Below, one piece after another: positions 3,275 to 30,614 of a stretch of DNA of 64,000 nt; the stretch's first letter is position 1, and the number at the start of each line of letters is the position of its first letter. Position numbers and translations under genes: made by a program. The stretch lies in NCBI GenBank assembly GCA_020161135.1, contig JAIUOB010000005.1, forward strand, positions 1-64,000, read 5' to 3'. Below the pieces are notes generated by a model, which made no database searches, was not told the origin of the DNA, and saw nothing but the letters and a program-made list of their open reading frames with translations. The DNA comes from Gemmatimonadota bacterium (GTDB lineage Bacteria; Gemmatimonadota; Gemmatimonadetes; Gemmatimonadales; Gemmatimonadaceae).

Positions 3275-6200
3275 CTACCGCCCTTTCACTTCCACTCTTG
3301 TCCCTTCGGTATGCGCCGAAAATTCCGGCGCGTACATGCACTGAATCGTCGCCAGTCCGCCGGAGAAATTACCGGCCTGCGTGGCAAACATCGGGTACTC
3401 AAACACGTATTTGCCCTTCGGCAGGTAGCTGATAAAGAAGTTGCTGGAAAGGTCCAGGGTGCTTTCGTAGTAACCAAGGCCGTCCTGCCAGCGGTAACCG
3501 CTGAGCACGTTTATCGGCTCAAAGCAAGAAGCGCGCGCGTCTTTCAGGTGTACGTACTCCATGTCGCGGTCCACGGTGATTTCTACCCGTGCTTTCACAC
3601 GGTCGCCCACCTTCACGCCCTCGCCTTCGGCCAGCGGACGCAACACGGGGCCGCGCGGCGTGGCTTCTTCCACCCACAAGGCCTTGCGGATTTGCAGCGG
3701 CGTTCCGGCAGCTTCTATCTTGTCGTAGTCCTCAAAATACTGCCAGTACACCCCGCCCCAAGTGGGCATTCCGGCGGGCAGTTTGGCGCTCGCTTTCGGC
3801 CCGTCGGCAACCGCAAACCGGATGTTGCCCATCTGCGGCGTGACCTCGCTTCCCGGAATCCGCGCTTTCAGATACCCGCTGCCCGCTTCGGTCTTTTGGG
3901 TTTGGGAAGAAACGGTACGGTCGCCCAGCGAAATGGTTACCTGCGGCTCGGCATTCAGCCACTCGGTGCCGGTGCGCAACAAGGCATAACACGCGTCGGC
4001 GGTGGCTTTGGTGCTGCGCCAGTGTTGTGTTTGCTTTTGTTTGAGGAGCCAACGGCGTGCTTCATTCACGGCAGCCTCGTTGTTGGTTTCGGCGAAGAAT
4101 TCAATCAGCAAGGCCTGACTTTCAATCGGCGCTTCGTACCACCACCACGAGCGCCCCATCTCCGGCCAGTAGCGGCCCATTTCTTCTTTGTAGGTGCTCG
4201 TTTCCAACAAAGATTTAGAGACTGCCGTTACCGTTGCGCCGTCGCCTTCGCGGTGGGCAAACAGGCCGGTCATGCCTTTGGTGAAAGCGTTGAATTTAGG
4301 CCAGTATTTCTTCGCCTGTCCGGCGTAGTACTGCACTTCTTTGCCCTGCGGCAGCTTGCCGAAGAACGTCCGCATATAGAGGTAATGCACCTGAAACGGA
4401 CTGACCTGCTGGGCGTCCAGCTTCGCTTTGTATTTAATCAGATTCTGGTAATCTTCCACAATTTTCCGGTCCAGGTACGGCAGGCACTTGTCGGCGATGC
4501 GTTTGAGGCGACCGCCGTAATCTTCCACACCGAGCGCTTTCAGGTGCCCGATGCCCGCCACAATGTATTGGGTGATAAACCGGTCGGGGCGCGGATTTCC
4601 GGAAAACCACGGAAAACCGCCTTCGGGCAACAACATCGCTTCCAGCTTTTTCGCCGTCCCTTCCAGCTCGCGGGACAGTTTCGCGGTTTCAAACAGGCGG
4701 GCAATATTCTTCTTTTGTTGTGTCTCCGACTGCGCCTGCAACACCCATGGTGTTTCCGCCAGCAAGGCCGATTTCAGCTCCTGATTTTTCTCCAGATTGC
4801 TCAGCAAGGCAGCGGTGTCTTCGGTTTGCCAGCGGCTCAACACTTCTTTGACGCGCGGCGCTTTTTTAAGGATGTGCGCGGCCAGGGCAGTGGCGTAATA
4901 ACGGTTAAAATTCTGCTCGGCGCACTCGTATGGATATTCCATCAGGTAGGGCAACGCCTGCACCGCATACCACGCCGGGTTGGTGGTGTATTCCACCGTC
5001 AGCGCGTGTTGGGCCAGCGTAATGCTTTTGCCGGACTGCAACAACGCGTCCCACTGCACCGATTTTTCGCCCGTGCCGTTCATCCACAAAGGCAGCGTTT
5101 CGGTTACAAGCGTGCGGTTGGTGACTACCGGCAGCGCTGTTTCTTCACCGTCGGTGAAAGCCCCGGATTGGGCCGAGATGCGCACCAGCACCGGCTCGTA
5201 GCGGCTGCGCGGAACATTCAATTTCCACGTTGCGGTAGTGCTACCATTTGCTCCGGCGGTAAAGCTTGCTTCCGTGTTGGAAAGCCCGAACTGCGTGTTT
5301 AAGGATTGGCCGGTCAGCGCGTCCACAATCTGAATGCGGGCTGTTCCGGCCATCTGCGCCGCCGTCATGTTGGTGATTTTGGCGGATAAAATCAGATTGT
5401 CTGCCTGCCGGAAAAAGCGCGGTAAACCGGGAACGACCATCAAATCTTTCTGGGTTTTCACCGTTCCGGTGAGCGTCCCCATCTTCAGGTCTTTGGTGTG
5501 TGCAAAGGCCATGAATTTCCACTCGGTCAGGGCTTCCGGAAAAGAGAATTTTATTTTCACGGAACCATCTTCTGCCGTAGTGAGTTGTGGCATAAAAAAC
5601 GCCGTTTCCTGAAGGTTTTTGCGAATTGGAACGTCAGTGGAATTTGGGGACTTTTCGTCTCCCGCAGGCGGTGCAGGTGGCGGTGGCGGTGCTTCGGCGG
5701 ATGCATCGGCAGCCATTTTAGCATTGGCCATTGCGGCAGGTGCCGGAGCCATCTGGGCTTCCTCCATAACTTCCATACGGCTTCGGGAAGCAGAGCGCAA
5801 CACCCGGCCTCCACCATAATAGCCGCGTTGTTCTATTTGGAAGAATTTCAGCGCGTCGTATTGCTTTTCGTACCCTTCCAGAAATGCAACATCCGGGGAA
5901 GAAATGTGCCGGTCGCCGGCGATGCCAAAACCGGTGTTGGTGTTCCAGCGGCGCTCCGGATAATGACTTGCAAAAAGCGAAAGCCGGCTCCAGGAATGCG
6001 GCAGGAAGGCATCCAGTGAAGCGTCATACAGCACAGCGGCCAGCTCGGCGGCTACCTTGTCTTTTTTCGCGCCGCGAACGGTCAGCGTCCAGCTTTCCGC
6101 TGCGCCGGGCTGCACCTTGTCGCGGTGCGTTTCCCACGAAAGCGAAAGGTCTTTATTGGTCCACGGCACGGCTACAGTTGCGGCAGTTGTGTAAATGCGG

Positions 6201-7045
6201 TTGTCGCGCACCATCAGGTATTGCAGCGAGAGGCCGCCGCGGTCGGCCTCGGTAATCGCTTTGGTCCACACATACGGGCCGCCCGCCACCGACACCCACT
6301 TTGGCGCGGCGTCGGGGCCAATACCTTCCGCATTTTCCAGCACCGCATCGCCGCCCACACCGGAAACGGTTCTGACGGTTACTTTCTCGCCTGGCTCAGC
6401 GGTAACGCTTTGCGGCACAGTCATCAGCGGAATGCCCGGTTTTCCGGCACTTTCCCCCGCCCACACGTGGACGTATTGCTTTTGCTCCACCGCCTTTCCG
6501 GCTTTGTCTTTGGTGGAAAAATGGAACACGTACCAGCCGTTTTTAGAAAAAACATCCGGCAGTTTCACCGCGCCTTTTTCGGTGGTGGCAAAGCTGTTGT
6601 CGTACACCGTTTCCGCCACCTTCCAATTGCGGTAGTTCCACTCTTCTTTATAGGCATCCAACGGAAACGATTTCTGGAAATCACCTTCGCTCAGCACAAA
6701 AACATCGGGCGTTTCCCACAAGCGCTTGCGGTACAACACATCCGGCGTTTGCAGGCGCTCCACTTTCAGTTTTACGGTTGCGGGCAGGAAATTTCCGGCC
6801 AGATTTTGGGTGTGAACCATCATGGTATCCAGCGCTTCGCGGGTCGTTTGCTCCGGCAGTTCGGCTATCAATTCCAGCGCGCGGTAGCCCGCAGAAATGC
6901 TTTGACTGCCGCTGTGGGTTTCGCCATTTTGGTCGCTCACGTCGGCCAGTACGGTGTAGGTGAAAACGGGCAGCCCGCTTTCCGGAATCTTTTCATCCGG
7001 CAGCGTAAAAAACGACACGTCAAACGAGCCGTCGGCGCGCGTGGT
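3275..7045 (-). CDS. Bacterial alpha-2-macroglobulin, C-terminal two thirds (5' end lost at junction)
   Basis: About 1,257 residues of a large periplasmic protease trap. The fragment begins within a macroglobulin domain (TTRADGSFDVSFFTLPDE), has a Pro-rich linker (APPPPPAPPAG, around 5650-5690), then the A2M domain (PQLTTAEDGSVKIKFSFPEA). Next comes the thioester region YPYECAEQNFNRYY with the diagnostic CxEQ motif. The alpha-toroid thioester domain and a C-terminal receptor-like domain follow, ending VEVKGR. Known family members trap proteases by covalent capture through the Cys-Gln thioester. Typical Bacteroidota homologues are far longer, with a signal peptide and more MG domains. Those are missing because at about 7031-7055 the sequence switches to unrelated GC-rich DNA. 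The open frame continues to 7288, but that part is antisense to an M24 peptidase and is not part of this protein. Confidence 0.9.
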   Translation of the reverse strand, partial: TTRADGSFDVSFFTLPDEKIPESGLPVFTYTVLADVSDQNGETHSGSQSISAGYRALELIAELPEQTTREALDTMMVHTQNLAGNFLPATVKLKVERLQTPDVLYRKRLWETPDVFVLSEGDFQKSFPLDAYKEEWNYRNWKVAETVYDNSFATTEKGAVKLPDVFSKNGWYVFHFSTKDKAGKAVEQKQYVHVWAGESAGKPGIPLMTVPQSVTAEPGEKVTVRTVSGVGGDAVLENAEGIGPDAAPKWVSVAGGPYVWTKAITEADRGGLSLQYLMVRDNRIYTTAATVAVPWTNKDLSLSWETHRDKVQPGAAESWTLTVRGAKKDKVAAELAAVLYDASLDAFLPHSWSRLSLFASHYPERRWNTNTGFGIAGDRHISSPDVAFLEGYEKQYDALKFFQIEQRGYYGGGRVLRSASRSRMEVMEEAQMAPAPAAMANAKMAADASAEAPPPPPAPPAGDEKSPNSTDVPIRKNLQETAFFMPQLTTAEDGSVKIKFSFPEALTEWKFMAFAHTKDLKMGTLTGTVKTQKDLMVVPGLPRFFRQADNLILSAKITNMTAAQMAGTARIQIVDALTGQSLNTQFGLSNTEASFTAGANGSTTATWKLNVPRSRYEPVLVRISAQSGAFTDGEETALPVVTNRTLVTETLPLWMNGTGEKSVQWDALLQSGKSITLAQHALTVEYTTNPAWYAVQALPYLMEYPYECAEQNFNRYYATALAAHILKKAPRVKEVLSRWQTEDTAALLSNLEKNQELKSALLAETPWVLQAQSETQQKKNIARLFETAKLSRELEGTAKKLEAMLLPEGGFPWFSGNPRPDRFITQYIVAGIGHLKALGVEDYGGRLKRIADKCLPYLDRKIVEDYQNLIKYKAKLDAQQVSPFQVHYLYMRTFFGKLPQGKEVQYYAGQAKKYWPKFNAFTKGMTGLFAHREGDGATVTAVSKSLLETSTYKEEMGRYWPEMGRSWWWYEAPIESQALLIEFFAETNNEAAVNEARRWLLKQKQTQHWRSTKATADACYALLRTGTEWLNAEPQVTISLGDRTVSSQTQKTEAGSGYLKARIPGSEVTPQMGNIRFAVADGPKASAKLPAGMPTWGGVYWQYFEDYDKIEAAGTPLQIRKALWVEEATPRGPVLRPLAEGEGVKVGDRVKARVEITVDRDMEYVHLKDARASCFEPINVLSGYRWQDGLGYYESTLDLSSNFFISYLPKGKYVFEYPMFATQAGNFSGGLATIQCMYAPEFSAHTEGTRVEVKGR

Positions 7046-7055
7046 GTCGGTGTGG
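7031..7055. other. Chimeric junction between two genomes
   Basis: Left of here the minus strand encodes a Bacteroidota alpha-2-macroglobulin. Right of here the plus strand encodes the C-terminal half of an M24 peptidase in strongly GC-rich DNA. Both genes lack their 5' ends at the same point. The GC-rich bases shared by both sides (around GGCGCGCGTGGTGTCGGTG) make the exact crossover uncertain by about 20 bases. No target-site duplication, integrase or insertion sequence is seen. Confidence 0.85.
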
Positions 7056-7430
7056 ACGGCGGTGCGCGATGCGCGTGACGCGGCACTCGAGCTGCTGCAG
7101 GCGCGCATCGCGGCCGGCACACCAGTGCGCGGCGCCGAGGCCGACGACGCGGCGCGCGCGGTGATCGAGGCGCGCGGGTTCGGGCCACACTTCTGGCATC
7201 GCACCGGCCACAGCATCGATGCCCGGGAGCTCCACGGGTCGGGACCGCAGCTCGACAATCTCGAGTCGCGCGATGATCGCGTGCTCATTCCCGGCGTGGG
7301 CTTCTCCGTCGAGCCCGGCGTCTACCTGCCGGGCGAGCTCGGCGTGCGCAGCGAAGTGAACTGCTTCGTGGGTGACGACGCCCTGCTGGTGACGCCGCGC
7401 GTGCCGCAGCGCGACCTGTTCATCGTCTGA
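7047..7430 (+). CDS. M24 metallopeptidase (Xaa-Pro aminopeptidase type), C-terminal fragment
   Basis: The last 127 residues of a pita-bread-fold metallopeptidase that removes N-terminal residues, classically those before proline. Visible active-site parts are FWHRTGHSID (metal-binding His), LIPGVGFSVEPGVYLPG (metal-binding Glu) and GVRSEVNCFV (second metal-binding Glu). The protein ends at a TGA at 7428. The N-terminal half, including the first metal-binding Asp pair, is absent because of the junction. The frame stays open leftward into the Bacteroidota-like DNA, but that stretch is antisense to the macroglobulin gene and is not part of this enzyme. Subfamily (PepP or PepQ-like) cannot be decided from the fragment. 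Confidence 0.85.
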   Translation, partial: SVWTAVRDARDAALELLQARIAAGTPVRGAEADDAARAVIEARGFGPHFWHRTGHSIDARELHGSGPQLDNLESRDDRVLIPGVGFSVEPGVYLPGELGVRSEVNCFVGDDALLVTPRVPQRDLFIV

Positions 7431-7506
7431 CGCGAGGCGTCGCGTCCTGCACAGCACGGTTGACGGGTCGCGATGCGTCCTCGCGCGGCACGCCCGGTCG
7501 CGTCGG

Positions 7507-8361
7507 GTGCTGCCGCAGTGGCTGTGCGGGCTCGTGCTGCTTGCCGCCTGTGGCAAGTCGGGCGACGCCGATCCGCGTGAGGCGTCGGGGCGTATCGCCG
7601 AAGTGCAGGCGCCGATCACGCGCGATCGCGCGCAGGCCGCGACCGGCAGGGCCGGGGCGACGGACGGCGACGAGGGGCCGGCGGGTCTCGCGCGGGCGGC
7701 CGGTGGGGCCGACGGGACGCAGTATCGCGTGCGCGTCGCTGCGGCTGCCGCGTCCATCGAGGGACACATCACGGGCGGGGCGCCGCGCGATACCTCCATC
7801 GTGCCCACCCACGACCTCGGCGTCTGCGAGCCCTTCAGCGAGGCGCTGGTGCCCAGCCGAGAGGGCGGGGTGGGGCTCACGTTGGTGTGGCTCGAGGGCG
7901 TACGCGAGGGGCCGCGCGACACCACGGCGCGACGCGTCTCGCTGTCGCTCGACGGTTGCCGCCTCGCGCCGCGACTCATGCTGCTGGGCGTGGGCGGCAC
8001 GCTGCTCGTGCGCAGCGGCGATGCGATGCTGTCGCGGCTGCAGTTCACGCGTGCCGGGACGCGGGCGCACGTGGCGACGGTGTCCTTCTCCGACGCCGGC
8101 CAGATCGTCCCGGTATCGGAGCCGGGGGCGGCGCCAGGCGTATTGGCGGTGACCGACGACCTCCATCCGTGGGTGCGCGCCTGGGTTGTGGTGACGCCAC
8201 ACCCGTTCGTCGCCATCACCGGTCCCGACGGACGATTCCGTTTCGACGGCGTACCGGCAGGACGCTATCGCCTCGTGGCGTGGCACGAGCACCTCGGCAC
8301 GCGTGCGATGGCAGTGCGCGTGGACGCTGGCGTCATCGCCCGGGTCGACCTCCACTTCTGA
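7507..8361 (+). CDS. Lipoprotein with carboxypeptidase-regulatory-like domain
   Basis: A 284-residue protein starting at GTG 7507. It has a short signal with a lipobox (LVLLAACGKSG), so it should be lipid-anchored. Residues 15-70 are low complexity. The middle (VWLEGV, then LSLDGCRLAPRLMLLGVGG) resembles a cupredoxin-like or methylamine-utilisation-type fold. The C-terminal part (HPFVAITGPDGRFRFDGVPA, then GRYRLVAWHEHLGT) is a carboxypeptidase-regulatory-like beta-sandwich. In other bacteria this combination often sits near cytochrome c or c-type electron carrier genes, but none is adjacent here. There is no catalytic motif. It follows the peptidase fragment by 76 bp and may share its transcript. 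Confidence 0.6.
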   Translation: MLPQWLCGLVLLAACGKSGDADPREASGRIAEVQAPITRDRAQAATGRAGATDGDEGPAGLARAAGGADGTQYRVRVAAAAASIEGHITGGAPRDTSIVPTHDLGVCEPFSEALVPSREGGVGLTLVWLEGVREGPRDTTARRVSLSLDGCRLAPRLMLLGVGGTLLVRSGDAMLSRLQFTRAGTRAHVATVSFSDAGQIVPVSEPGAAPGVLAVTDDLHPWVRAWVVVTPHPFVAITGPDGRFRFDGVPAGRYRLVAWHEHLGTRAMAVRVDAGVIARVDLHF

Positions 8362-8471
8362 GCGGCCGACGTGCGGTGCGGCGCGGTGAACGCGCCGGAC
8401 GCCGCAAGCGATCGATGGGCGCCGCAACAGTTCGATGACACACGCGGCGCACGGCGCACCTACCGTGTGCC

Positions 8472-8987
8472 ATGCCGCACAACCCCAGTCGTCTCCGCGT
8501 GCTGGAGCAGGCCACGTCGCTGGCCGACGATCTGCACCGGCTCCTGGACCAGCAGTACGACCAGGTGGCGCACACGTCCCCGGGCGTGCGCGTGTCGTTG
8601 TTGCGGGCGGTGGACGCCATTCCGGCGGCCATCCTCGACGCGGCGTCGCAGCGCTCCACGACGCGCACGGTCACGCTGTTGCTCGCCGCGGCGTCCCACT
8701 GCAATGACGTCGAGCGTCAGTTGCACTTGGCGAGCGCGTTGGGCGCGCTCGATGCGGGTGCCGACCGGCTGCTCCTGCGCGTGCAGGCGGTGCGTCGCCA
8801 GCTCTACGGCTTCAAGCGCTACCTCGAGACGCGTGCCGACGAACGCGCCGCCGCGCGCGGGCGCCCGCGGGTCGACTTCGCTGCGGCCGACCGTGCTGCG
8901 GCTGAGCGTGCTACGGCTGACCGTGCTGCCGCGGACGCCGCCGTGGCGGCGCCCACCGATGGTGCCGCGGCGGAACCGAGCGGGTGA
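8472..8987 (+). CDS. Four-helix-bundle (23S rRNA IVP-like) protein
   Basis: A 171-residue helical protein. Residues 7-115 match the four-helix-bundle family first seen in intervening sequences of 23S rRNA genes (LRVLEQATSLADDLHRLL, then RAVDAIPAAILDAASQ, then LHLASALGALDAGADRLLLR, then VRRQLYGFKRYLETR). Family members form oligomeric barrels with a basic surface and have no defined enzymatic role. The tail (about residues 130-171) is an Ala/Asp/Arg-rich low-complexity stretch made of short repeated units. It converges on ctaB with a 3-bp gap. The next four-helix-bundle gene (16298) is shorter and lacks the tail. Confidence 0.6.
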   Translation: MPHNPSRLRVLEQATSLADDLHRLLDQQYDQVAHTSPGVRVSLLRAVDAIPAAILDAASQRSTTRTVTLLLAAASHCNDVERQLHLASALGALDAGADRLLLRVQAVRRQLYGFKRYLETRADERAAARGRPRVDFAAADRAAAERATADRAAADAAVAAPTDGAAAEPSG

Positions 8988-8990
8988 GCG

Positions 8991-9899
8991 TCAGAGATTC
9001 CGGTCGAGCGCCATCGCGAGGAACAGCAGCGCGAGATACAGCAGCGAGTACTTGTACACCCACCACGCAGGCGCCGTCCACGGCTGCTGCGCGCGCGCGG
9101 CGAACAGCACGCGCAGCACGCCCCAGAGCAGCACGCCCCCCAGCACCAGCGCCGACACGAGATAGAGCAGCCCGAACGCGCCGTACAGCGCCGGGAGCAG
9201 CGTCAGCGCCAGCAGGATGAGCGTGTACCAGACCATCTGGTGCATCGTCTCGCGCTCGCCCCACACGAGCGGCGCCATGGGCACGCGCGCTCGGCCGTAG
9301 TCGACCTGCTTGAGCAGGGCGAGCGCCCAGAAGTGCGGGGGCGTCCAGTAGAACACGATGAGGAAGAGCAGCAGCGCCGTGACGTCGAGCGTGCCGGTCA
9401 CGGCCGCCCACCCCACGAGTGGCGGAAAGGCCCCAGCAGCCCCGCCGATCACGATGTTGTGCGGCGAGCTGCGCTTGAGCCACCGCGTGTAGATGAACAC
9501 GTAGAAGTAGAACCCGGCCAACGCGAGCAACGCCGTGAGCACGTTGACGAAGTGCGCCAGCATCCACGTGGCGAACGTCGCGCAGGCCACCCCGAACGCG
9601 AGCACCTGGATGGGCCACATGCGTCCGCTCGGAATGGGGCGGAGGCGCGTGCGGGCCATGACATCGTCGATGTCGCGGTCGAGGTACATGTTGACCGCGT
9701 TGGCCCCGCCGGCCATCAGGTACCCGCCCAGCATCACCAGCAGCACCGTCACCCAACTCGGCGAGCCCGCGGCGTACATGGGCGCGGCAGTCGTGACCAG
9801 GAGCAGCGAGATGATGCGCGGCTTGGTGAGCGCGAGCAGGTCGCGCGAGAGCGTGGGGGCAGGGGCCGGAGCGCGGCCGGACACGGCGTCCTCAGCCAC
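8991..9899 (-). CDS. ctaB: Protoheme IX farnesyltransferase (heme O synthase)
   Basis: A 302-residue UbiA-family membrane enzyme that adds a farnesyl group to heme b, giving heme O for terminal oxidases. It has the first Asp-rich motif in GGANAVNMYLDRDIDDVMARTRxRPxPSG form and the second region DYGRARVPMAP, with YWTPPHFWALAL between them, plus about nine hydrophobic segments. Its start overlaps the end of ctaA by 8 bp on the same strand, which shows translational coupling. Heme O then goes to CtaA for conversion to heme A, so the pair supports an aa3-type cytochrome oxidase; the oxidase genes are not in the window. Confidence 0.95.
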   Translation of the reverse strand: MAEDAVSGRAPAPAPTLSRDLLALTKPRIISLLLVTTAAPMYAAGSPSWVTVLLVMLGGYLMAGGANAVNMYLDRDIDDVMARTRLRPIPSGRMWPIQVLAFGVACATFATWMLAHFVNVLTALLALAGFYFYVFIYTRWLKRSSPHNIVIGGAAGAFPPLVGWAAVTGTLDVTALLLFLIVFYWTPPHFWALALLKQVDYGRARVPMAPLVWGERETMHQMVWYTLILLALTLLPALYGAFGLLYLVSALVLGGVLLWGVLRVLFAARAQQPWTAPAWWVYKYSLLYLALLFLAMALDRNL

Positions 9900-10926
9900 G
9901 TGGCAACCGGGCGCGGGCGTCAGGGACCAGGTGGGCGGCCGTCTGCACCGCGTACACCTCGGTGTCGGCCGTGCCGATGGCCGACTGGCTCAGCGCGATC
10001 GCGCTCCGCCCCGCCGCGATGCGGGCGAGGTAGGCCGTGATGAACGCCGACACCCAGATGAGGATGCCCGTGGCCTGGTGCAGCGACCGCACCACGCCCG
10101 GAAAGCCACCCAGCACCATCCACGCCGCCCAGACCACCTGCAGCACGCCAAATCCCGCCGCGACCGTCACGGCGGTGCGCACCGGCGCCGGCTCGGCGCG
10201 CCGCCGGAACACGGCCACGAGCGCGACGAGGTGCAGCACGAGCAGGTAGGCCAGCACGCGGTGCGTGAGCTGGACATGCTGCGCCCCGCCACCCAGCGAC
10301 CCCTCGCCGCACAGCGGGAAGCCGACGCAGGCCACGGCGGCGCCGGCGATCTTGGCCGTCAGACCGCCCATCAGCACCACCAGGAGCGCCAGCCCGGCGG
10401 CCGCCGTGGCGCCACCGACCGCCTTCGTGCTGCCGCGCTGCGCGAGCGCCGCCGCCCCACCGAGGCTCCCCGAGCGCACCACCGCCATGGACAGCACGCC
10501 CAGCAGGGTGGCCGCCAGCAGCTTGTGCACGACCGTCGCCCAGGGCGGGTTGCCCGTGAACACGGTCACCGCGCCAAAGAGCGCCGGGGCGAACCAGAGC
10601 CCCAGCGCGAGTCGCGCGCTGCCCCAGACGCCACCGCGGGCTCCCACCGAGGGCTGGGCGCGATGCCGCCACGCCGCGGCGACCAGCGCCGCGATGCTCA
10701 CGAACAGGGCGACCGCCAGGTAGCGGTGCATGACCTCGATGATGAGGTCCATACGCTCGAACGGCGGGATCCAGTAGCCGTAGCACTTCGGCCAGTTGTC
10801 GCCGCACCCCATGCCGGAGCCGGAGATGCGGACGATGCCGCCGAAGATGGTGTGCACGAGCGCCACACCGAGCGCGACGAAGGCGGCGCGGCGGACGGGC
10901 GCCGGCGCGAGAGTCGGGGCAGTCAT
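9892..10926 (-). CDS. ctaA: Heme A synthase
   Basis: A 344-residue membrane protein of the COX15/CtaA family that oxidises the heme O methyl group to the formyl group of heme A. Two related four-helix halves are visible, each with conserved His: FGGIVRISGSGMGCGDNWPK, IEVMHRYLAV, ATVVHKLLAATLLG in the first; CVGFPLCGEGSLGGG, VQLTHRVLAYLLVL, VRSLHQATGILIW in the second. The start at 10926 gives a short N-terminus before the first helix, and its ATG overlaps the TGA of the upstream minigene. The chain is transcribed minigene, ctaA, ctaB. Confidence 0.93.
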   Translation of the reverse strand: MTAPTLAPAPVRRAAFVALGVALVHTIFGGIVRISGSGMGCGDNWPKCYGYWIPPFERMDLIIEVMHRYLAVALFVSIAALVAAAWRHRAQPSVGARGGVWGSARLALGLWFAPALFGAVTVFTGNPPWATVVHKLLAATLLGVLSMAVVRSGSLGGAAALAQRGSTKAVGGATAAAGLALLVVLMGGLTAKIAGAAVACVGFPLCGEGSLGGGAQHVQLTHRVLAYLLVLHLVALVAVFRRRAEPAPVRTAVTVAAGFGVLQVVWAAWMVLGGFPGVVRSLHQATGILIWVSAFITAYLARIAAGRSAIALSQSAIGTADTEVYAVQTAAHLVPDARARLPRG

Positions 10927-11162
10927 CAGGGCAGCAGGCGCCAGGCGCCGACAAAAGCGAGAAGGAGGCCGATGATCGGCAGAACGGCCCACGCGACCTC
11001 GGCCCAGCGGCGCGGGGTCGGCAGGGCCGGGGAGGTGCCCGGGAGCTGCGCGCGAAAGAGCCCGCGCACGATGAGCACCTGCGCCACGAGGCAGGTCAGG
11101 AGCAGCGCCGCAAAGAGCGCCGTGACGGCCCCCGAAGGGAGCCAAAGGGAAAGCGGTCGCAT
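10926..11162 (-). CDS. Small two-helix membrane protein resembling the CoxII transmembrane hairpin
   Basis: A 78-residue protein with two hydrophobic segments: AVTALFAALLLTCLVAQVLIV, and after a basic loop, EVAWAVLPIIGLLLAFVGAW. The WAEVAWAVLPI segment is like the second helix of cytochrome c oxidase subunit II (the E-x-x-W-x-x-x-P pattern), but the periplasmic copper-binding domain is absent. It is coupled to ctaA through a start/stop overlap (ATGA). It is therefore a candidate assembly or chaperone factor for heme A synthesis or oxidase insertion. The similarity is by eye and over a short hydrophobic span, so it may be coincidental. Confidence 0.6.
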   Translation of the reverse strand: MRPLSLWLPSGAVTALFAALLLTCLVAQVLIVRGLFRAQLPGTSPALPTPRRWAEVAWAVLPIIGLLLAFVGAWRLLP

Positions 11163-11227
11163 GGCATGAGAAAACTAGTGGGGGGCGGGTCGTGCGGGAC
11201 GCCGTACCCGGTACTAGCATTGCGGCC

Positions 11228-12628
11228 ATGCCCCCATCCCCCACCTCCGGCCGCGATTCGGCCCCCTCCGCCATCCGCCCTGACGGCGCGACGGCGACGA
11301 CCGAGCTCCCCCGGACCCTCGGCCTCTGGAGCGCGATCGCGGTGCTCGTGGGGACGACCATCGGCTCCGGGATCTTCCGCTCGCCGGCCGGCATCGCCGA
11401 CAAGCTCCCCGGTCCGCTCCCCATCCTGCTGGTTTGGACCGTGGGTGGGCTGTTCTCGCTCTGCGGGGCGCTGACGCTGGCCGAACTGGCCGGCGCCCTG
11501 CCGCGCACCGGGGGCTACTTCGTCTACATCCGCGAGGCGTGGGGGCGTCTCCCGGCCTTCCTCTATGGCTGGTCGGAGCTGACGCTCATCCGCGCCGCGG
11601 CGCTGGGCGGCATCGCGACCACGTTCGCGCAGTACGCGCTGCGCGGCCTGGGCTACGACCCCGTCGCCGCCCCCTACGACGCGTGGGCGCACTACCTCGC
11701 GGCGGCCACCATCGCGGTCATCGCCTGCGTGAACATCGTCGGCGTGCGCTACGGCGCGCTGGTGCAGAACGTCACCACCATCGCGAAGTATGGAGGCCTC
11801 GTCATCATCGTCCTGCTCGCGCTGGCCATCGGGTTGCCGCGCACGGGTGGCCACTTCACGCCATCGGTGCCGCCCGGAAGCATCAGCGTGAGTGCCTTCG
11901 GCCTGGCCCTGGTGAGCGTGCTCTGGGCCTACGACGGCTGGGGCGACCTGACGAAGGTGTCGGGCGAGGTGAAGGACCCCGAGCGCAACCTGCCGCGCGC
12001 GCTCGTGCTGGGGACGCTGGCGATCGTCGCGATCTACGTGCTGGCCAACATTGCCTACCTCGCGGTGCTCCCCGTCGAGGAGATCCGCCGCGCGCCGCTC
12101 GTCGCGGCGAATGTGGCCGAGGTGCTCATCGGACCGATCGGCGTGACGCTGGTGGCACTCACGGTGCTGCTGTCGACGTTCGGGAGTGTCAACGGCTCCA
12201 TGATGAGCGGCAGCCGCATCTTCTTCGCGATGGCCGACGACCAGCTCTTCTTTCGTGGGGTGGCCGCCGTGCATCCGCGCTGGAAGACGCCGTATGTCGC
12301 CATCGCGCTCAATGCGAGCGTCGGGATCGCGTTCGTGCTCCTGCGGACCTTCGAACAGCTCGCGGACATTTTCGTGACCACCTCGCTGGTGTTCTACGTG
12401 CTCAGCATCGGCGCGATCTTCCGCCTGCGTCGCCGTCCCGGGTGGAACCCACCGGTGCGGGTGCCCTTCTATCCGTTCGTCCCGGCGCTCTTCTGCCTCG
12501 CCGTGCTGTTCCTGTTGGTGAACGCCCTGATGGACCCCGCCCAGCGCGTGCCGACCTTGCAGGTATTCGGTGTCATCCTGGCCGGTGTGCCGCTGTACTT
12601 CCTCACCGTGGGGAAGCGGCGCGGCTGA
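11228..12628 (+). CDS. APC-superfamily amino acid permease
   Basis: A 466-residue transporter with about 12 hydrophobic segments. It carries the family signature at its first helix (IAVLVGTTIGSGIFRSPAGI), the TLAELAGALPRTGGYFVYIR segment of helix 2-3, and YDGWGDLTKVSGEVKDPERN at the helix 6-7 loop. This matches the LAT/APC group that exchanges or imports amino acids. I chose the ATG at 11228 over the GTG at 11192 because a possible -10-like element (TACTAG at about 11212) lies between them. It is divergent from the heme operon, with a spacer of only 65 bp. The substrate cannot be read from sequence. Confidence 0.85.
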   Translation: MPPSPTSGRDSAPSAIRPDGATATTELPRTLGLWSAIAVLVGTTIGSGIFRSPAGIADKLPGPLPILLVWTVGGLFSLCGALTLAELAGALPRTGGYFVYIREAWGRLPAFLYGWSELTLIRAAALGGIATTFAQYALRGLGYDPVAAPYDAWAHYLAAATIAVIACVNIVGVRYGALVQNVTTIAKYGGLVIIVLLALAIGLPRTGGHFTPSVPPGSISVSAFGLALVSVLWAYDGWGDLTKVSGEVKDPERNLPRALVLGTLAIVAIYVLANIAYLAVLPVEEIRRAPLVAANVAEVLIGPIGVTLVALTVLLSTFGSVNGSMMSGSRIFFAMADDQLFFRGVAAVHPRWKTPYVAIALNASVGIAFVLLRTFEQLADIFVTTSLVFYVLSIGAIFRLRRRPGWNPPVRVPFYPFVPALFCLAVLFLLVNALMDPAQRVPTLQVFGVILAGVPLYFLTVGKRRG

Positions 12629-12687
12629 GGGCCACGTCACGGTGCCGTCACACTCCCGGGCGGGGGTTGGGCACCGCCGCGCATTGC

Positions 12688-12716
12688 TTGAACGTTGGGT
12701 TCGGTAGGTCTAGCTT
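12688..12716 (+). promoter_or_regulatory. Sigma-70-like promoter of the TonB-dependent receptor gene
   Basis: TTGAAC (12688-12693), a 17-bp spacer, then TAGCTT (12711-12716). It lies 79 bp before the receptor start in a locally AT-richer patch. Confidence 0.55.
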
Positions 12717-12794
12717 TTGCGTGCTCGCGACGGCGTGGGCTTCCATCACGTTCCGTCGCGGGCGCTTTCCCCTCCACACACGGACGAACTCGCT

Positions 12795-15700
12795 ATGCGC
12801 ATGCAGCGTTGGCTCGGCGTCGCGACGGCGGTGGTGGCCCTGGTTCTCGGGTCCACCCGCACGCTTGCAGCCCAGGGCCTCACGACGGGCGCCATCTCCG
12901 GCCTCGTGTCGAAGACCGGTGGGACCCCGCTCGAAAACGTGCAGATCGAAATTGTGAACGTCGCGACCGGCTACCGCACGGGGTACCTGACCCGCGGCAA
13001 CGGTCGCTTCTTCGTGCAGTCCCTCGAGATCGGCACGTATCGGGTCACGGCCCGCCTGCTGGGCTACGCGCCGCAGACGCGCACCGACATCCGCGTGACG
13101 CTCAACGCGACCACGCGGGTCGACTTCGAGATGGCCGAAGCGGCGGCGCAACTGGCCGAGGTGACGACGACGGCGCAGGCGAACGGCGCCGACTTCTCGC
13201 CGACGCGCCAGGGTGTCGCGACGGTCGTCACCGACACGCTCATCCGCCGCGTGCCGTCGCTGCAGCGCGACTTCTCCGAAATGGTGAAGCTGACGCCGCA
13301 GGTCAACGCGCGTGACGGTGGCGCGTCGGCCGGTGGTGCCTACAACCGCCTCAACAACTTCACGGTCGACGGTGCGAACCAGAACGACCGCTTCAACCTC
13401 GGCTCGTCGGGCGGCCAGCCTGGCGGTGCGACCGGCGCGCGCATCATGTCGGTCGACGCGGTGAAGGAATTCCAGGTGCTCATGAGCCCGACCGACGTGC
13501 GCTACGGCAACTTCGGCGGCATGCTCGTGAACGCGGTGACGCGCAACGGCACGAACACGTGGACGGGCGGCGCGACGTACACGTATCGCAATCCGCGGAT
13601 GGCCGCCAACGTCGACCAGATCCGCCGGAGCGGCTTCCAGTACAAGAACTACGGCTTCACCCTCGGTGGCCCGATCATCAAGGACAAGCTGCACTTCTTC
13701 ATCGCCCCCGAGTTCCAGGACCGCACCGACCCGACCACGGGCCCGACAGCGAACCTCGTCTCGAACAGCATCGGCGGCGTGTCGCTCGACTCGATCGCCC
13801 GCATCCGCAGCATCCTGGGCCCCAAGTTCGACGTGGGCTCGGAAGGCGCGTTCTCGCGTGGCAATCCGCTGTCGAACATCTTCGCCCGTGTCGACTGGAG
13901 CATCAACGGCAACAACCGCCTCGCGGTGCGCCTCCTCGACAACTCGGCCGAGCAGGACGAGCTGACGCGCAACACGACGGCGCTCAACGCAAACGGCGCC
14001 GGCAACCAGAGCTCGGGCATCCGCCTGACCTCGAATTCCTTCACGCGCCGCAACGAGAACCGGTCGCTGGTGGGCCAGCTCTTCACGAGCTTCGGCAATG
14101 GCGCGTCGAACGAGTTCCTCGTCGGCTTCAACACGATCCGCGACAAGCGCATCGTGCCGGTGCAGGCGCCCGAGATCTCGCTGGCGGTGCAGGGCGTCGC
14201 GGTCACGCTGGGCGCCGAGCGCTTCTCGCCCGGCAACGACCTCAAGCAGCGCATCTTCGAGGTGTCGGAGAACTACTCGCTGCCGATCGGCAACCACCAG
14301 TTCACCATCGGCGGCCGGTACGAGCGCACGTACGTCTACAACTACTTCCTGTCCGGCGCGGCATACGGCGCGTACGCCTTCCCGAACATCGCGGCGCTGG
14401 CCAACAACGCGCCGACGAGCTACGCCTTCTCGTACGCGAACGGCGGTGACATCGCGGCTGAGTTCAACACGACGCAGCTGTCGGCCTACATCCAGGACCT
14501 ATGGGGTGTGACGCGCAACCTGTCCGTCACGTACGGCCTGCGTGTCGACCGTCCGGACTTCACCGAGGCGCCGAAGCAGAACGACCTGATCACGGCGCGC
14601 GCGGCGAACATCCGCACCGACTGGAAGCCCAAGGCGACGTTCCTGTTCTCGCCCCGCATCGGCTTCAACTGGGATGTGACCGGCGACCAGGTAACGCAGG
14701 TGCGTGGCAACATCGGCATCTTCACCGCGCAGGCGCCGTTCATCCTCATCGGCAATGCGTACTCGAACACCGGTCTCGGTGGCGTGACGGTGCAGTGCTC
14801 GGGCGCCGCGACGCCCGCGTTCACGACGGACGTGAACAACATGCCGCGGTCGTGCCAGGGGCAGCCGGCTCCGACGCCGGGCGCGGCGGGCACGGTCGGC
14901 GTCAACGTGACCGACCCGGACTTCAAGTACCCGCAGAACTTCACGACCTCGCTCGCGTTCGACCGCAAGCTCCCCGGCGGCTTCGTGGCGACGTTCGAGG
15001 GGCTGTACCGCCGCGACATCCACGGCCTGTACGTGCGTGACTTGAACTTCAAGGGTCCGCGCCTCGTGGGCGGCGTGCCGTACACGGACCGGAACGGTCG
15101 CGTGCTGTACGCCGACACCATCAGCAGCACGGGCGCGGTCACGAACAGCGGCCAGAAGTACATCACGTCCGTGGGGACGCCATCCGTGAACTTCACGGAA
15201 GGCGCCATCATGCTGACCAACTCGAAGGGCGGTTACAACTACACGCTCTCGGGTCAGCTCAAGAAGCGCTTCAACCGCGCCTTCGAGGCGACGGCGGCGT
15301 ACAACTACATGCAGGCGGAGGACGTGCAGTCGCTCACGTCCGATCGTGCGATCTCGAACTGGCGCAACGGGCGTCAGTACGCGGGGCTCGAGTTCGACCC
15401 CGAGGACATCTCGACGTCCAACTTCCAGCGCCCGCACCGCGTGATCGCCTTCGGCACCTACACGGCGCCGTGGAAGACGAACCAGACCGACGTCACGTTC
15501 TTCTTCGAGGGCATCTCGGGCCAGCCGTTCGTGTACGTCACGAACGCCGACATCAACGGTGATGGCTTCGCCGGCAACGACCCGATCTACGTGCCGAAGA
15601 GCGCGCTCGACCCGAACGAGGTCCGCATCGGCACCGGCACGGGCACGGCGTTCCAGCTCTCGAGCGCGGAAGCGCAGATCCTCGAGAACTTCATCAACGC

Positions 15701-16094
15701 GCAGCCCTGCCTGAACAGCCAGCGCGGCCAGATCATGAAGCGCAACAGCTGCCAGGCGCCGTGGCAGCAGCGCATGGATGTGAGCGTCCGCCAGACGATC
15801 CCCGAGATCGCCGGCCAGCGTCTCACGGTCCAGCTGGACATCTTCAACTTCGCGAACCTGGTCAACAAGAACTGGGGCCGCGTGAAGTTCCCCGTGCAGA
15901 GCACGTTCAACAACCAGCAGCTGTTCAACCAGTCCGGCCGCACGGCGGGCCCGCTGAACCAGAGCATGCCGAACTACACCCTCAACGCTGCGATCCGCAC
16001 GGCGATGGTGAACACCGGCAGCCCGTTCTCGGTGAACCCGAACTCGGCGGGCAACAACTACCAGCTGCAGCTCACGGTGCGGTACTCGTTCTGA
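12795..16094 (+). CDS. Oar-like TonB-dependent outer-membrane receptor with carboxypeptidase-like N-terminus
   Basis: A 1,099-residue outer-membrane protein. Signal peptide about residues 1-28 (ending TRTLAAQ). Then a carboxypeptidase-regulatory-like domain (ISGLVSKTGGTPLENVQIEI, then GYRTGYLTRGNGRFFVQSLE). Next is a plug (LQRDFSEMVKLTPQVN, NNFTVDGANQNDRFNLG, VDAVKEFQVLMSPTDVRYGN). The rest is a long beta-barrel ending in the aromatic strand LQLTVRYSF. Large Oar/SusC-like receptors are abundant in Gemmatimonadota and take up large substrates with TonB energy. No SusD partner gene is adjacent. ATG 12795 is chosen because the frame upstream adds 26 residues ahead of a normal signal. A sigma-70-like promoter and a strong terminator bracket the gene, so it is monocistronic. 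Confidence 0.88.
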   Translation: MRMQRWLGVATAVVALVLGSTRTLAAQGLTTGAISGLVSKTGGTPLENVQIEIVNVATGYRTGYLTRGNGRFFVQSLEIGTYRVTARLLGYAPQTRTDIRVTLNATTRVDFEMAEAAAQLAEVTTTAQANGADFSPTRQGVATVVTDTLIRRVPSLQRDFSEMVKLTPQVNARDGGASAGGAYNRLNNFTVDGANQNDRFNLGSSGGQPGGATGARIMSVDAVKEFQVLMSPTDVRYGNFGGMLVNAVTRNGTNTWTGGATYTYRNPRMAANVDQIRRSGFQYKNYGFTLGGPIIKDKLHFFIAPEFQDRTDPTTGPTANLVSNSIGGVSLDSIARIRSILGPKFDVGSEGAFSRGNPLSNIFARVDWSINGNNRLAVRLLDNSAEQDELTRNTTALNANGAGNQSSGIRLTSNSFTRRNENRSLVGQLFTSFGNGASNEFLVGFNTIRDKRIVPVQAPEISLAVQGVAVTLGAERFSPGNDLKQRIFEVSENYSLPIGNHQFTIGGRYERTYVYNYFLSGAAYGAYAFPNIAALANNAPTSYAFSYANGGDIAAEFNTTQLSAYIQDLWGVTRNLSVTYGLRVDRPDFTEAPKQNDLITARAANIRTDWKPKATFLFSPRIGFNWDVTGDQVTQVRGNIGIFTAQAPFILIGNAYSNTGLGGVTVQCSGAATPAFTTDVNNMPRSCQGQPAPTPGAAGTVGVNVTDPDFKYPQNFTTSLAFDRKLPGGFVATFEGLYRRDIHGLYVRDLNFKGPRLVGGVPYTDRNGRVLYADTISSTGAVTNSGQKYITSVGTPSVNFTEGAIMLTNSKGGYNYTLSGQLKKRFNRAFEATAAYNYMQAEDVQSLTSDRAISNWRNGRQYAGLEFDPEDISTSNFQRPHRVIAFGTYTAPWKTNQTDVTFFFEGISGQPFVYVTNADINGDGFAGNDPIYVPKSALDPNEVRIGTGTGTAFQLSSAEAQILENFINAQPCLNSQRGQIMKRNSCQAPWQQRMDVSVRQTIPEIAGQRLTVQLDIFNFANLVNKNWGRVKFPVQSTFNNQQLFNQSGRTAGPLNQSMPNYTLNAAIRTAMVNTGSPFSVNPNSAGNNYQLQLTVRYSF

Positions 16095-16117
16095 GTGCCG
16101 CGGGTGGGTGACAACGG

Positions 16118-16154
16118 AGCGGGGGCCGGCGATGCCGGCCCCCGCTTTGTGTTT
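16118..16154 (+). terminator. Rho-independent terminator after the receptor gene
   Basis: A 13-bp perfect GC-rich stem (16118-16130 with 16134-16146) around a GAT loop, followed by TTGTGTTT. It lies 24 bp after the stop codon. Confidence 0.85.
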
Positions 16155-16191
16155 AGGGGAGTGAAGGGGCGCGCCGCGTATCCGTGAGGGA

Positions 16192-16202
16192 GCAGGAAGC
16201 AG
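16192..16202 (+). repeat. GCAGGAAGCAG repeat upstream of a four-helix-bundle gene
   Basis: The same 11-mer recurs at 16764-16774 and in reverse orientation at 16707-16717, so the small gene at 16298-16678 is flanked on both sides. See the hairpin at 16706-16775. Confidence 0.6.
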
Positions 16203-16297
16203 ACACCAGGGAACGCGGAACGCGCCGGTGCGGTGGATCGACGCTGCGCGCGACGAAATGATGACGGTGGATCGGGCGCACGGGCGCATTGTGCACC

Positions 16298-16678
16298 ATG
16301 CAAGACCCGCAGAATCTCGAGGTCTATCGGCGCGCGTTCGAGCTTGCCGTTGCGGTGAGTCATGCCGCGCGACTCCTCCGGCCGCGAGAGTGTCCGGGAT
16401 TGGCCGCGCAGTTGCATCGCTCCGCGTGCTCCGTGCCCGCGAACATCAGCGAAGGTGTGGGAAGTCCCAGCGCGGCCGTCTGCGCGAGACACCTCGCCGT
16501 CGCACTCGGGAGCAGCTTCGAAACGGAAACGCATCTGCTGCTCGCAGCGCGGTTGGGGCCACACGTTGGCGACGTCGCACCACTCGTGAGGGAGTTGCGC
16601 CAGATCCGACGTATGCTGCATGCGCTGCGCCGCTACTACCTCGCGAAGGCCGATCGCGAGCGCCAGAACATCCGGTGA
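16298..16678 (+). CDS. Four-helix-bundle (23S rRNA IVP-like) protein, repeat-flanked
   Basis: A 126-residue protein of the four-helix-bundle family (NLEVYRRAFELAVAVSHAAR, then LAAQLHRSACSVPANISEGV, then ARHLAVALGSSFETETHLLL, then RELRQIRRMLHALRRYY). The SVPANISEG loop and the closing basic helix are the family hallmarks. ATG 16298 is preferred to an in-frame TTG nine bases upstream. Family members were first described inside spirochaete 23S rRNA intervening sequences and are related in fold to the Avd protein of diversity-generating retroelements. No reverse transcriptase or template repeat is near. The gene sits between copies of a GCAGGAAGCAG motif and may be carried as a small insertion cassette. 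Confidence 0.85.
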   Translation: MQDPQNLEVYRRAFELAVAVSHAARLLRPRECPGLAAQLHRSACSVPANISEGVGSPSAAVCARHLAVALGSSFETETHLLLAARLGPHVGDVAPLVRELRQIRRMLHALRRYYLAKADRERQNIR

Positions 16679-16705
16679 ATCCACCCTCCGCCCCAATTCC
16701 TTCTT

Positions 16706-16775
16706 CCTGCTTCCTGCTGCCTGCGGTCGAAGTATCGGCGCTGCGGCGCGACGACCGCAGTGCGCAGGAAGCAGG
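16706..16775. repeat. 24-nt inverted repeat (CCTGCTTCCTGC / GCAGGAAGCAGG arms)
   Basis: The arms 16706-16729 and 16752-16775 pair over 12 and 9 bases, interrupted by three unpaired positions, around a 22-base loop. The hairpin lies between the four-helix-bundle gene and the convergent mlaD gene and could stop transcription from either side, although there is no U tract. Confidence 0.65.
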
Positions 16776-16827
16776 CGAAAGGGGGCGGGAGGCAGGGGGG
16801 GATGTGGAGCGCGGCGCAGGGGGAATC

Positions 16828-17712
16828 CTAGAAGATCCGCAAATTCACATACTTCTTCGGATTCTTCTGGAAATCGATCACCAGCGAATCCACCCGCGCG
16901 AGCAGCGAGTCGAGTCGCGCGTACAACGCCGGATCGTTCATCAGCATGCCCGCGGTGCCGGGGCCGTTGGACACCTTGTCCACCACGCCCTGGACCTTCT
17001 CGTTGGTCGCGCGCAACTCACGCGTGAGCTGCTCCACGCTGGCCGACGTCGCGCGGAGGTTGGTGAGCGTCGAGTCGACCTTCGCGCTGTCGACACTCGC
17101 GAGGGTCTTGCGCAGCGTCGCCTGCGTGAGCGTGAGCTGCTCCGACTGCGTGGCGGCCACCGTGCTGAGCTGCGCCACGAGGCGTGTGAGCGCGGTGATG
17201 GTGCGGCGCACGTCGGCGAGGCCGGCGCTGTCCACCAACTGGCGACGGGCCTCGTCGCTCAGCGCCCGGACGTTGAACGCGATGGAGTCGCCCTTGCTGA
17301 GGAGCGCGCCGACGCCCGGGCTGCCGACGCCGGCCGGCACCGTGTCGCCGGGCGCGATCTTGCCGGTCACGCCCTTCACCGGCGTGAGCGCGACGAGCTG
17401 GTCGCCAAAGATGCCGTTCGGCTCGACCGAGGCGGTCGCACCCTCGGGGATGCCGTACTGTGACTGGATCTTGAGCGTCACGCCGATCGTGCCGTCGGGG
17501 ATGAGCTCGACCCGGTCGACGAAGCCGACCTGCACACCGGCGAGCAGCACGGGCTGCCCCTGCTTGAGGCCGGCGCCCCACGGGAAGCGCGTGTGCAGCG
17601 CGTACGTGCGCGCGAGTCCGCCTCGCGCGATCCAGATGGTGCCGCCGATGCCGAGGATCACGGCCACCAGCAGCAGCATCCCCACCAACACTTCGTCGCG
17701 TCGCTTGTTCAT
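16828..17712 (-). CDS. MlaD/MCE-family lipid-transport substrate-binding protein
   Basis: A 294-residue inner-membrane-anchored periplasmic protein. One N-terminal helix (VLVGMLLLVAVILGIGGTIW) is followed by a single MCE domain, residues about 38-115 (GAGLKQGQPVLLAGVQVGFV, then GVTLKIQSQYGIPEGATASV, then GIFGDQLVALTP). Residues about 150-290 are a long helical region with regularly spaced Thr/Ser/Leu. MCE proteins form hexameric rings that pass phospholipids between the inner and outer membranes together with an MlaE permease and an MlaF ATPase. The MlaE gene is directly upstream (42 bp). No mlaF ATPase gene is in this operon. Confidence 0.9.
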   Translation of the reverse strand: MNKRRDEVLVGMLLLVAVILGIGGTIWIARGGLARTYALHTRFPWGAGLKQGQPVLLAGVQVGFVDRVELIPDGTIGVTLKIQSQYGIPEGATASVEPNGIFGDQLVALTPVKGVTGKIAPGDTVPAGVGSPGVGALLSKGDSIAFNVRALSDEARRQLVDSAGLADVRRTITALTRLVAQLSTVAATQSEQLTLTQATLRKTLASVDSAKVDSTLTNLRATSASVEQLTRELRATNEKVQGVVDKVSNGPGTAGMLMNDPALYARLDSLLARVDSLVIDFQKNPKKYVNLRIF

Positions 17713-17754
17713 GGAAATCCGGGGAAAGCGCGGCGTCGCCGCGGCACGGGCACG

Positions 17755-18549
17755 TCAGGCCTGAATGAAGGGGGCCAGCACCGCCGCCACGAGGGCGTCG
17801 AGCACCAGGATGGACACGGACGCGATGACCACCGCCAGCGCCGTGGAGCGACCGACGCCCTCGGCGCCGGCCTCGGTGCGGTAGCCCTCGAACGAGCAGA
17901 CAAAGGCGATGGCGGCGCCGAACAGCGTGGCCTTGATGAGCGAGTAGACCACCTGGAACGCCGTGAAGGCGAGCCGGAGGCCGCTCAGGAAGTCGTCGGT
18001 GCGCACGTCGGTGGCCGTCACGAGGATCGCCCACGCAGAGAAGATCGCCGTGGCGTTCGCGAGGATCGTGAGCACCGGCAGCATCACGAGGCCGGCGAGG
18101 AAGCGCGGCAACGCCAGGTACGCGATGGGGTCGAAGCTGAGGGTCTCGAGCGCATCGATCTGCTCGGTGACACGCATGGTCCCGATCTCGGCCGTCATGC
18201 GCGCGCCCACCCGCCCGGTGAGCACGAGCGCGGTGAGCAGCGGCCCGAGTTCGAGCACGATGCTCTGCCGGGCGATGAGCCCGACCACCGAGAGCTGCAC
18301 GCCGGGGAAGAGCTGGTAACGCGTCTGGAAGGCGGTCACGCCCCCCAGGAACGCCGCGACGATGACGGTGAGGGGCACCGAGTCGACGCCGATCCGCCGC
18401 ATCTGACGGATCCACTCGGGCCACCAGGTGGCGGGCTCCCGCAGCCCGCGCACGACGTCCCGCGCGAAGTAGCCGCGGGTGCCGAGCGCGGTGAGGATGC
18501 CGCGCGCGCGGCGCGTCGCGAAGCCGAGGAGCGCCGGCGTCGTGGTCAT
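17755..18549 (-). CDS. mlaE: MlaE-family ABC transporter permease
   Basis: A 264-residue inner-membrane permease of the phospholipid-trafficking Mla/MCE system. It has five or six hydrophobic segments and the family regions VPLTVIVAAFLGGVTAFQTR, then ELGPLLTALVLTGRVGARMT followed by AEIGTMRVTEQIDALETLSF and DPIAYLALPRFLAGLVMLP. The EIGTMRVTEQIDAL helix is the conserved coupling helix contacting the ATPase. The ATG at 18549 lies 14 bp after the lptG stop, and the mlaD gene follows 42 bp on, so lptF, lptG, mlaE and mlaD form one transcription unit on the minus strand. Confidence 0.92.
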   Translation of the reverse strand: MTTTPALLGFATRRARGILTALGTRGYFARDVVRGLREPATWWPEWIRQMRRIGVDSVPLTVIVAAFLGGVTAFQTRYQLFPGVQLSVVGLIARQSIVLELGPLLTALVLTGRVGARMTAEIGTMRVTEQIDALETLSFDPIAYLALPRFLAGLVMLPVLTILANATAIFSAWAILVTATDVRTDDFLSGLRLAFTAFQVVYSLIKATLFGAAIAFVCSFEGYRTEAGAEGVGRSTALAVVIASVSILVLDALVAAVLAPFIQA

Positions 18550-18563
18550 GACGTGGCCACGCG

Positions 18564-19652
18564 TCAGGTCCGCACGCGTGCGAGGAGCACGATGGCGAAG
18601 GTGGCGACGAGCGCGTTGGGCATCCAGGCGACGTAGTCGGGGGGGAGGATGCCCTTGCCGCCGAGGGCCTTGGTGAGCTGCACGAGCACGAGGAAGAGCA
18701 CCGTGGTGGCGAGGCTCACCGCGATGCCGTACGCCGCGCCGCCGCGCTGCGAACTCGTCGCGAGCGGTGCACCGAACAGCGCGATGATGATGCAGGTGAC
18801 CGGGATGGCCAGCTTGAGCATGCGCTCGACCTTGAGGGTGTTCACGTCCGCGCCGCCGCGTTCGAGCGCCCGGATGAAGGCCGACAGCTCGGCGAAGCGC
18901 ATCTCGCCCGGCAGGCGCTGGCTCGCGCGCAGCTCCTGCGGGGTCTCGGTGAAGCGCCGGTCGCGCAGCGAGTCGAAGGCCATGGTATAGTCGGCGGTGC
19001 GATCCGGGATGACGTGCATGACTCCCTTGTGCAACATCCACCCCCGCTCCGGCTTCCAGGCGGCGGTCTTGGCCGCGATGAGGAGCCCCGGCTGCTTCGT
19101 GCTGCCGCGCGCCTCGATCTCGATGTTGTCGATCGTGCGCGGCTTGAGGTTGAGCGTGTAGATGCGGTAGACCCGCCCGCCCTCGCTGGCGAAGGCGAAG
19201 TTGTACCGGTCGCTGTCGCGCGTCCCCGTCTCGCCCTCGAGCAGACGCACCCGCTCGGCGTTGGCGGGCGGCGAGACCTCGGCGAAGACCAGGTCGAGCC
19301 CCATGGCCAACGTGGCCATGACGAGGATGGGCGCGATGAAGCGGTAGAACGAGATCCCCGAGGCCTTGGCGGCGGTGATCTCGGAGTAGCGGGTGAAGGT
19401 GCCGATGCTGAACACGGTGGCGAAGAGCACCGCGGCAGGCAGCACCATGAACAGCGTGTCGGGAATCCAGTACGCGTAGCTCAGCGCCAGCGTCTGCAGC
19501 GACAGCTTGCGTTCGGCGTACTTGCGCGAGTTGTCGACCAGGTCGATGACGAACACGAGCACCGGGAAGCCCAGGATCGTGACGCCGAAGATGCGCGCAA
19601 ACTCGCCGGCGATGTAGCGGTCGAGTGGGGTGATGAGCGAGCGACGACTCAC
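18564..19652 (-). CDS. lptG: LptG-type lipopolysaccharide export permease
   Basis: A 362-residue permease of the LptF/LptG (YjgP/YjgQ) family that extracts lipopolysaccharide from the inner membrane with the LptB ATPase. It has three N-terminal membrane helices (ITPLDRYIAGEFARIF, VLPAAVLFATVFSIGTFTRY with the coupling motif SEITAAKASGISFYRFIAPI), a periplasmic beta-jellyroll domain, and three C-terminal helices. The GTG start at 19652 overlaps the TGA of lptF (GTGA), so the pair is translationally coupled. F versus G is assigned from gene order and the lack of an insert here. No lptB is in the window. Confidence 0.85.
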   Translation of the reverse strand: MSRRSLITPLDRYIAGEFARIFGVTILGFPVLVFVIDLVDNSRKYAERKLSLQTLALSYAYWIPDTLFMVLPAAVLFATVFSIGTFTRYSEITAAKASGISFYRFIAPILVMATLAMGLDLVFAEVSPPANAERVRLLEGETGTRDSDRYNFAFASEGGRVYRIYTLNLKPRTIDNIEIEARGSTKQPGLLIAAKTAAWKPERGWMLHKGVMHVIPDRTADYTMAFDSLRDRRFTETPQELRASQRLPGEMRFAELSAFIRALERGGADVNTLKVERMLKLAIPVTCIIIALFGAPLATSSQRGGAAYGIAVSLATTVLFLVLVQLTKALGGKGILPPDYVAWMPNALVATFAIVLLARVRT

Positions 19653-21511: not shown

Positions 21512-21562
21512 GACGTAAATTCCCCGGTCACCACCCGCTTTATCAAGGGCGCGCCGTTGTGG

Positions 21563-28084: not shown

Positions 28085-28178
28085 CACCCCGCGGTGGGCC
28101 ATGCGCGTCGCGTGCTATTGGGCAGGCGCGCAACGGTTCGATGACGGGTCGCCGCGTCGGGCGCGCCACCTTGCGGCC

Positions 28179-28757
28179 ATGGCAACGGCGGCAGAGCGCA
28201 AGGCGCTGGGTTTCCTGGCGGCGGTGGCCCTGGCGGGGGGCGCGGTACGCGTGGTGGGGGTCGAGCGCTTCGCGCCGGCGTCCGCCTCGGGCGCGCGGGT
28301 GCCCACCGGCGACCTGGGCGAGCGGGCACTCGCCGCCCAGCGTGCCGCCGTCGACTCCGCCCGGGCGGCCGGGCCCCGCACGCGGTCGTCCCGCGGCCGG
28401 ACGCGAGGCAGGGCGGGGGGCGGCGGGGCAACCGAGGCCGCCGCCAGTCGTCCAAGGACGGACGGCGCAGCCGCTCGCTCCCGGGCCGGCGACCCCCCGG
28501 CGCCGTTCGACATCAACGCGGCCGACGCCGTCCAAATCGAGCGCCTCCCACGGGTCGGCCCGGCCTTGGCACGGCGCATCGTCGACTGGCGGGAGAAGCA
28601 CGGCCCCTTCGGCGGTCCGGACGACCTCCGTCACGTCCGTGGCATCGGCCCGGCCACCGTGCGCCTCATCACGCCCCTCGTGACGTTTTCCGGGAGGCAC
28701 AGTCCCATGCTGAGTGAGGGTCCACCCGGACCCTCGTCTCATCCAGACGGCGACTGA
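28179..28757 (+). CDS. ComEA-like helix-hairpin-helix DNA-binding protein
   Basis: A 192-residue protein. A hydrophobic N-terminal segment (ALGFLAAVALAGGAVRVVGV) suggests membrane anchoring or export. Residues about 45-115 are a low-complexity Ala/Arg/Gly linker. The C-terminal part is a paired helix-hairpin-helix: FDINAADAVQIERLPRVGPA, LARRIVDWREKHGPFGGPDD, LRHVRGIGPATVRLITPLV. ComEA proteins bind double-stranded DNA in the periplasm during natural transformation together with type IV pili. The pilB, pilT and pilC genes directly downstream fit this. ATG 28179 is chosen because an upstream start would add 26 charged residues before the hydrophobic segment. Confidence 0.85.
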   Translation: MATAAERKALGFLAAVALAGGAVRVVGVERFAPASASGARVPTGDLGERALAAQRAAVDSARAAGPRTRSSRGRTRGRAGGGGATEAAASRPRTDGAAARSRAGDPPAPFDINAADAVQIERLPRVGPALARRIVDWREKHGPFGGPDDLRHVRGIGPATVRLITPLVTFSGRHSPMLSEGPPGPSSHPDGD

Positions 28758-28772
28758 CGGGATCCCCGCACG

Positions 28773-30614
<1,842 letters not shown>

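Follow-up and report, generated by a model that had tools for sequence, protein, structure and literature searches.

An abrupt change of lineage at the head of a Gemmatimonas-type metagenomic contig is very probably an assembly chimera

The junction between Bacteroidota-type and Gemmatimonas-type DNA at the head of contig C3 is, with very high confidence, an assembly chimera (a misjoined metagenomic contig) and not the product of gene transfer. The window that we analyzed, 64,000 bases in all, is the beginning of C3 (653,445 bp), one of the 8 contigs of a Gemmatimonas-type assembly of 4,545,183 bp that serves as species representative and whose estimated completeness and contamination are 93.6 and 3.5%, respectively. 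A preliminary description of this DNA had proposed a misjoined contig as the simplest reading, and it is by far the best one in view of a split M24 peptidase gene, the two foreign extensions of its halves, the native gene order around them and their rejoining without gaps. According to this reading, an unbroken M24 peptidase gene on a Gemmatimonas-type host chromosome would have been split during assembly; its right half, on C3, would have acquired 7 kb of Bacteroidota DNA as a head, and its left half, on contig C5, 25 kb of apparently actinobacterial DNA as a tail.

Change of lineage at the head of contig C3

The change of sequence at the C3 junction is real. The GC content in 1-kb bins lies between 0.48 and 0.58 for bases 1–7000, reaches 0.737 in the next bin and then stays between 0.64 and 0.74 up to 33 kb. 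The shift of base composition reported in the preliminary description was also borne out by the comparison of tetranucleotide frequencies on the two flanks that it had proposed as a check, since the coefficient of correlation to the host is 0.43 in bases 1–7030 vs. 0.99 in bases 7060–16000. Together with the matches to relatives, these values define an abrupt change of lineage within the contig. To place them in the context of the whole assembly we compared all 16 contig ends (C6, of 11.9 kb, was taken whole), and only two of them deviated strongly from the host composition: the C3 head (r = 0.43) and the C5 tail (r = 0.90–0.93). All the others gave values of 0.976–0.993; no further chimera stands out by composition at these ends, the mildest outlier being the start of C7 (r = 0.976).

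On the left side of the junction, the DNA is 83–85% identical to the Bacteroidota metagenome-assembled genome (MAG) UBA1952 over bases 3275–7045 and 67–74% identical to the MAG PMG_148 over bases 2270–7039. The minus-strand alpha-2-macroglobulin frame follows UBA1952 up to base 7045/7046, and the YkuD transpeptidase gene adjoins the alpha-2-macroglobulin gene at the same place in PMG_148. Matches of bases 1–2200 to Bacteroidota are weak or short, and their origin is less certain on this evidence. A search among 119 genomes around PMG_148 revealed no source closer than PMG_148 itself. The homologue in UBA1952 has 2078 codons vs. 1258 in the window frame, so that about 820 codons are missing from the alpha-2-macroglobulin gene, which had rightly been described as cut at its 5′ end. 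The missing part was not found anywhere in the assembly, while the same query detected homologues in PMG_148 and in a Niabella MAG, which served as positive controls. Two minor features lie within this head: an HNH endonuclease frame truncated by the start of the contig (bases 2–331), and a short repeat-like stretch at bases 550–710, which several Bacteroidota genomes match almost identically, on both strands at bases 678–710, and which is probably an intergenic palindromic repeat.

On the right side, the similarity of a plus-strand M24 frame to Gemmatimonas-type relatives begins at base ~7041 (at base 7028 in the case of L054). The piece present in the window spans less than half of the 208-position Pfam M24 profile, in agreement with the earlier observation that this gene, too, is cut at its 5′ end. 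Most of the 24 genomes of the same genus that we searched have a close M24 homologue, with about 78–88% identity, and the open frame that contains it is usually about 370–510 codons long; a close match was absent from two of the 24 (G003 and G014), and the frame is broken in a few genomes, often fragmented assemblies. Downstream of the M24 piece the contig is colinear with G021, a relative assembled in one contig of 4,636,964 bp (Table 1). The matches to UBA1952 and to the Gemmatimonas-type relatives agree with the two phyla that had been named for the two sides of the junction.

Table 1. Coordinates of the features at the two joins (positions in the window unless C5 is given)
Feature	Position	Strand	Evidence
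Foreign (Bacteroidota-type) contig head	1..7046		GC content, tetranucleotide r, DNA identity to UBA1952 and PMG_148
Bacterial alpha-2-macroglobulin, 3′ 1258 codons; 5′ ~820 codons lost at the join	3275..7051	-	Pfam A2M and bMG10; homologue in UBA1952 (L015)
Join segment CGAGCCGTCGGCGCGCGTGGT	7026..7046		Present natively in both the Bacteroidota relative and the reconstructed host gene
Host M24 peptidase gene, 3′ part	7041..7430	+	Pfam M24 profile positions 109–206; Gemmatimonas-type relatives
Host chromosome colinear with G021 positions 3037336 down to 3010219	7059..33134		Alignment to G021
Foreign tail (L057, L058)	C5:1146725-1171919		25 kb; composition, gene content

The other half of the M24 gene and the tail of contig C5

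A search with both gene halves, a further check proposed in the preliminary description, yielded not only the longer alpha-2-macroglobulin homologue in UBA1952 but also the 5′ part of the M24 gene, which is located at C5:1145938-1146714 (to 1146725 at its widest), 25 kb from the contig end. The two pieces divide the Pfam M24 profile at position 109/110, with the C5 piece matching positions 4–110, and the split falls at a single codon of the gene, between EPS and ARVVSV. The 10 kb of C5 that precede the M24 half match, in order, the region directly upstream of M24 in relatives, and in five relatives C5 before the M24 half and C3 after base 7041 are adjacent. Thus, the native continuation of the broken gene is found elsewhere in the same assembly with its native gene order kept. 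When C5 and C3 were rejoined at a single copy of the 11-bp sequence CGAGCCGTCGG, an open M24 frame was obtained (DQTWMASLGEPSARVVSVWTAVRDARDAALELL) that aligns without gaps to the five relatives at 71–76% DNA identity. A rejoined frame that is open and free of gaps indicates that the M24 gene is almost certainly intact in the organism.

Beyond the M24 half, C5 runs into DNA of another kind. The half continues in frame into a headless aconitase X gene (AcnX, PF04412) that lacks the first 92 profile positions, and after it come, in order, smc, fpg, rsmD, recG, a DAK-type gene, thiL, gpsA, plsC, an HU-like gene and leuC; these names come from reading the translations, and a family search confirmed those of RecG, LeuC, SMC and HU. 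The HU-like gene carries an Ala/Lys-rich tail, and the best matches among solved structures are 4pt4/4dky for HU and 3p9n for RsmD, which are mycobacterial structures. Gene content and order such as these are typical of Actinomycetota, and the C5 tail is likely to be of actinobacterial origin. An accessory region of the host was also considered and ruled out by the composition of the tail, by the presence of a second, separate recG of host type on C1 and by the distribution of AcnX, for which only one of the 24 relatives searched has a clear homologue (52% identity). No AcnX relative was found among plasmids in a search aimed at an overlap at the second join.

The preliminary description had seen no example of a gene broken on both sides. 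M24 provides one, and this part of the description does not hold; however, since its other half on C5 runs into DNA resembling that of a third phylum, the finding strengthens the misassembly reading. A single host gene interrupted, with both halves present, is also what would be expected if a natural mosaic of chromosomal DNA from Actinomycetota and Bacteroidota, 32 kb or more in size and with its middle part unassembled, had been inserted in M24, C5 and C3 being truly linked. We consider this very improbable, as the foreign genes A2M and AcnX are both cut at the joins, the foreign DNA apparently comes from two phyla, with one part made of chromosomal housekeeping genes, a search of the window revealed no tRNA gene, the frames examined beside the joins included no recognizable integrase or transposase, and the M24 site is uninterrupted in the five relatives examined. 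Two joins at one codon, leading into two other phyla, by themselves make a natural transfer very unlikely. The join was seen in none of the five relatives that were read in detail.

The shared sequence at the join

The junction had been placed at bases 7031–7055; the best estimate is an ambiguous segment slightly to the left (Table 1). Its 21 bp are common to the Bacteroidota relative and to the host gene, the host side being that of the C5–C3 rejoin. To estimate how frequent such words are, we compared 327 kb of host DNA with 253 kb of Bacteroidota-relative DNA and found 22 shared 17-mers and no shared 21-mer. Against this background, it would be a remarkable coincidence if a breakpoint placed at random fell precisely on such a 21-bp word. 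The word therefore suggests a k-mer or short-overlap collision, by which the bridge at the C3 join would most likely have been made, although we infer both the exact software step and the role of the shared word as the cause of the join. One shared word is an incomplete explanation for two halves that are broken at one codon and continue into two different genomes.

The 11-mer CGAGCCGTCGG is present at both joins, C3 and C5, as expected of the target-site duplication that a natural insertion would leave. The Bacteroidota relative, however, has this 11-mer natively within the 21-bp match, which rules out a duplication. Template switching would fit a short sequence in common at the join as well as a graph collision does, and chimeric molecules could have been made in the library, by ligation or during amplification, and then assembled faithfully, with no error of the assembler graph. 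This would need two independent molecules that are broken at one and the same codon of M24, for which a tangled node or a gap in the assembly graph is a simpler account, and genuine reads would normally outvote such molecules; we thus regard it as very improbable and favor a misjoin made during assembly.

Comparison with known cases and consequences for the assembly

Inter-genome chimeric contigs in metagenome-assembled genomes are the class of error that GUNC was built to detect (PMC8201837), and chimeric contigs can result from assembly graphs that shared k-mers have linked (PMC7299287). As in these, the change of lineage in C3 is abrupt and falls on a short sequence common to the two sources, with genes cut on both sides, and the completeness and contamination estimates of the assembly are still acceptable. 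Unlike the usual case, both broken ends of one host gene were found here, each extended into a different genome. The region resembles a horizontally acquired genomic island in having foreign composition beside native DNA, but it differs from one in that the cuts fall within genes of both partners, no mobility gene was recognized among the translated frames of the window and of the C5 tail, there is no true target duplication, the foreign genes include housekeeping genes and two donor lineages meet the host at the joins.

The joins would have no biological import and are a matter of quality control. A species-representative assembly would hold two cross-phylum joins and about 32 kb of foreign DNA, and with them a false in-frame M24–AcnX fusion protein and the false look of an inter-phylum gene transfer. 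The genes of C3:1-7046, and those beyond ~1146725 on C5, should not be attributed to this organism.

The same window also contains an ordinary island. It is a defence island located at bases 33252–45406, with lower GC content and a different tetranucleotide profile, that starts after an intact pilC-like gene ending at base 33132, where synteny with the relatives stops. It carries an AIPR/AbiU-like gene, the Type I genes HsdM and HsdS, HsdR, and a SIR2–HerA pair located between HsdS and HsdR.
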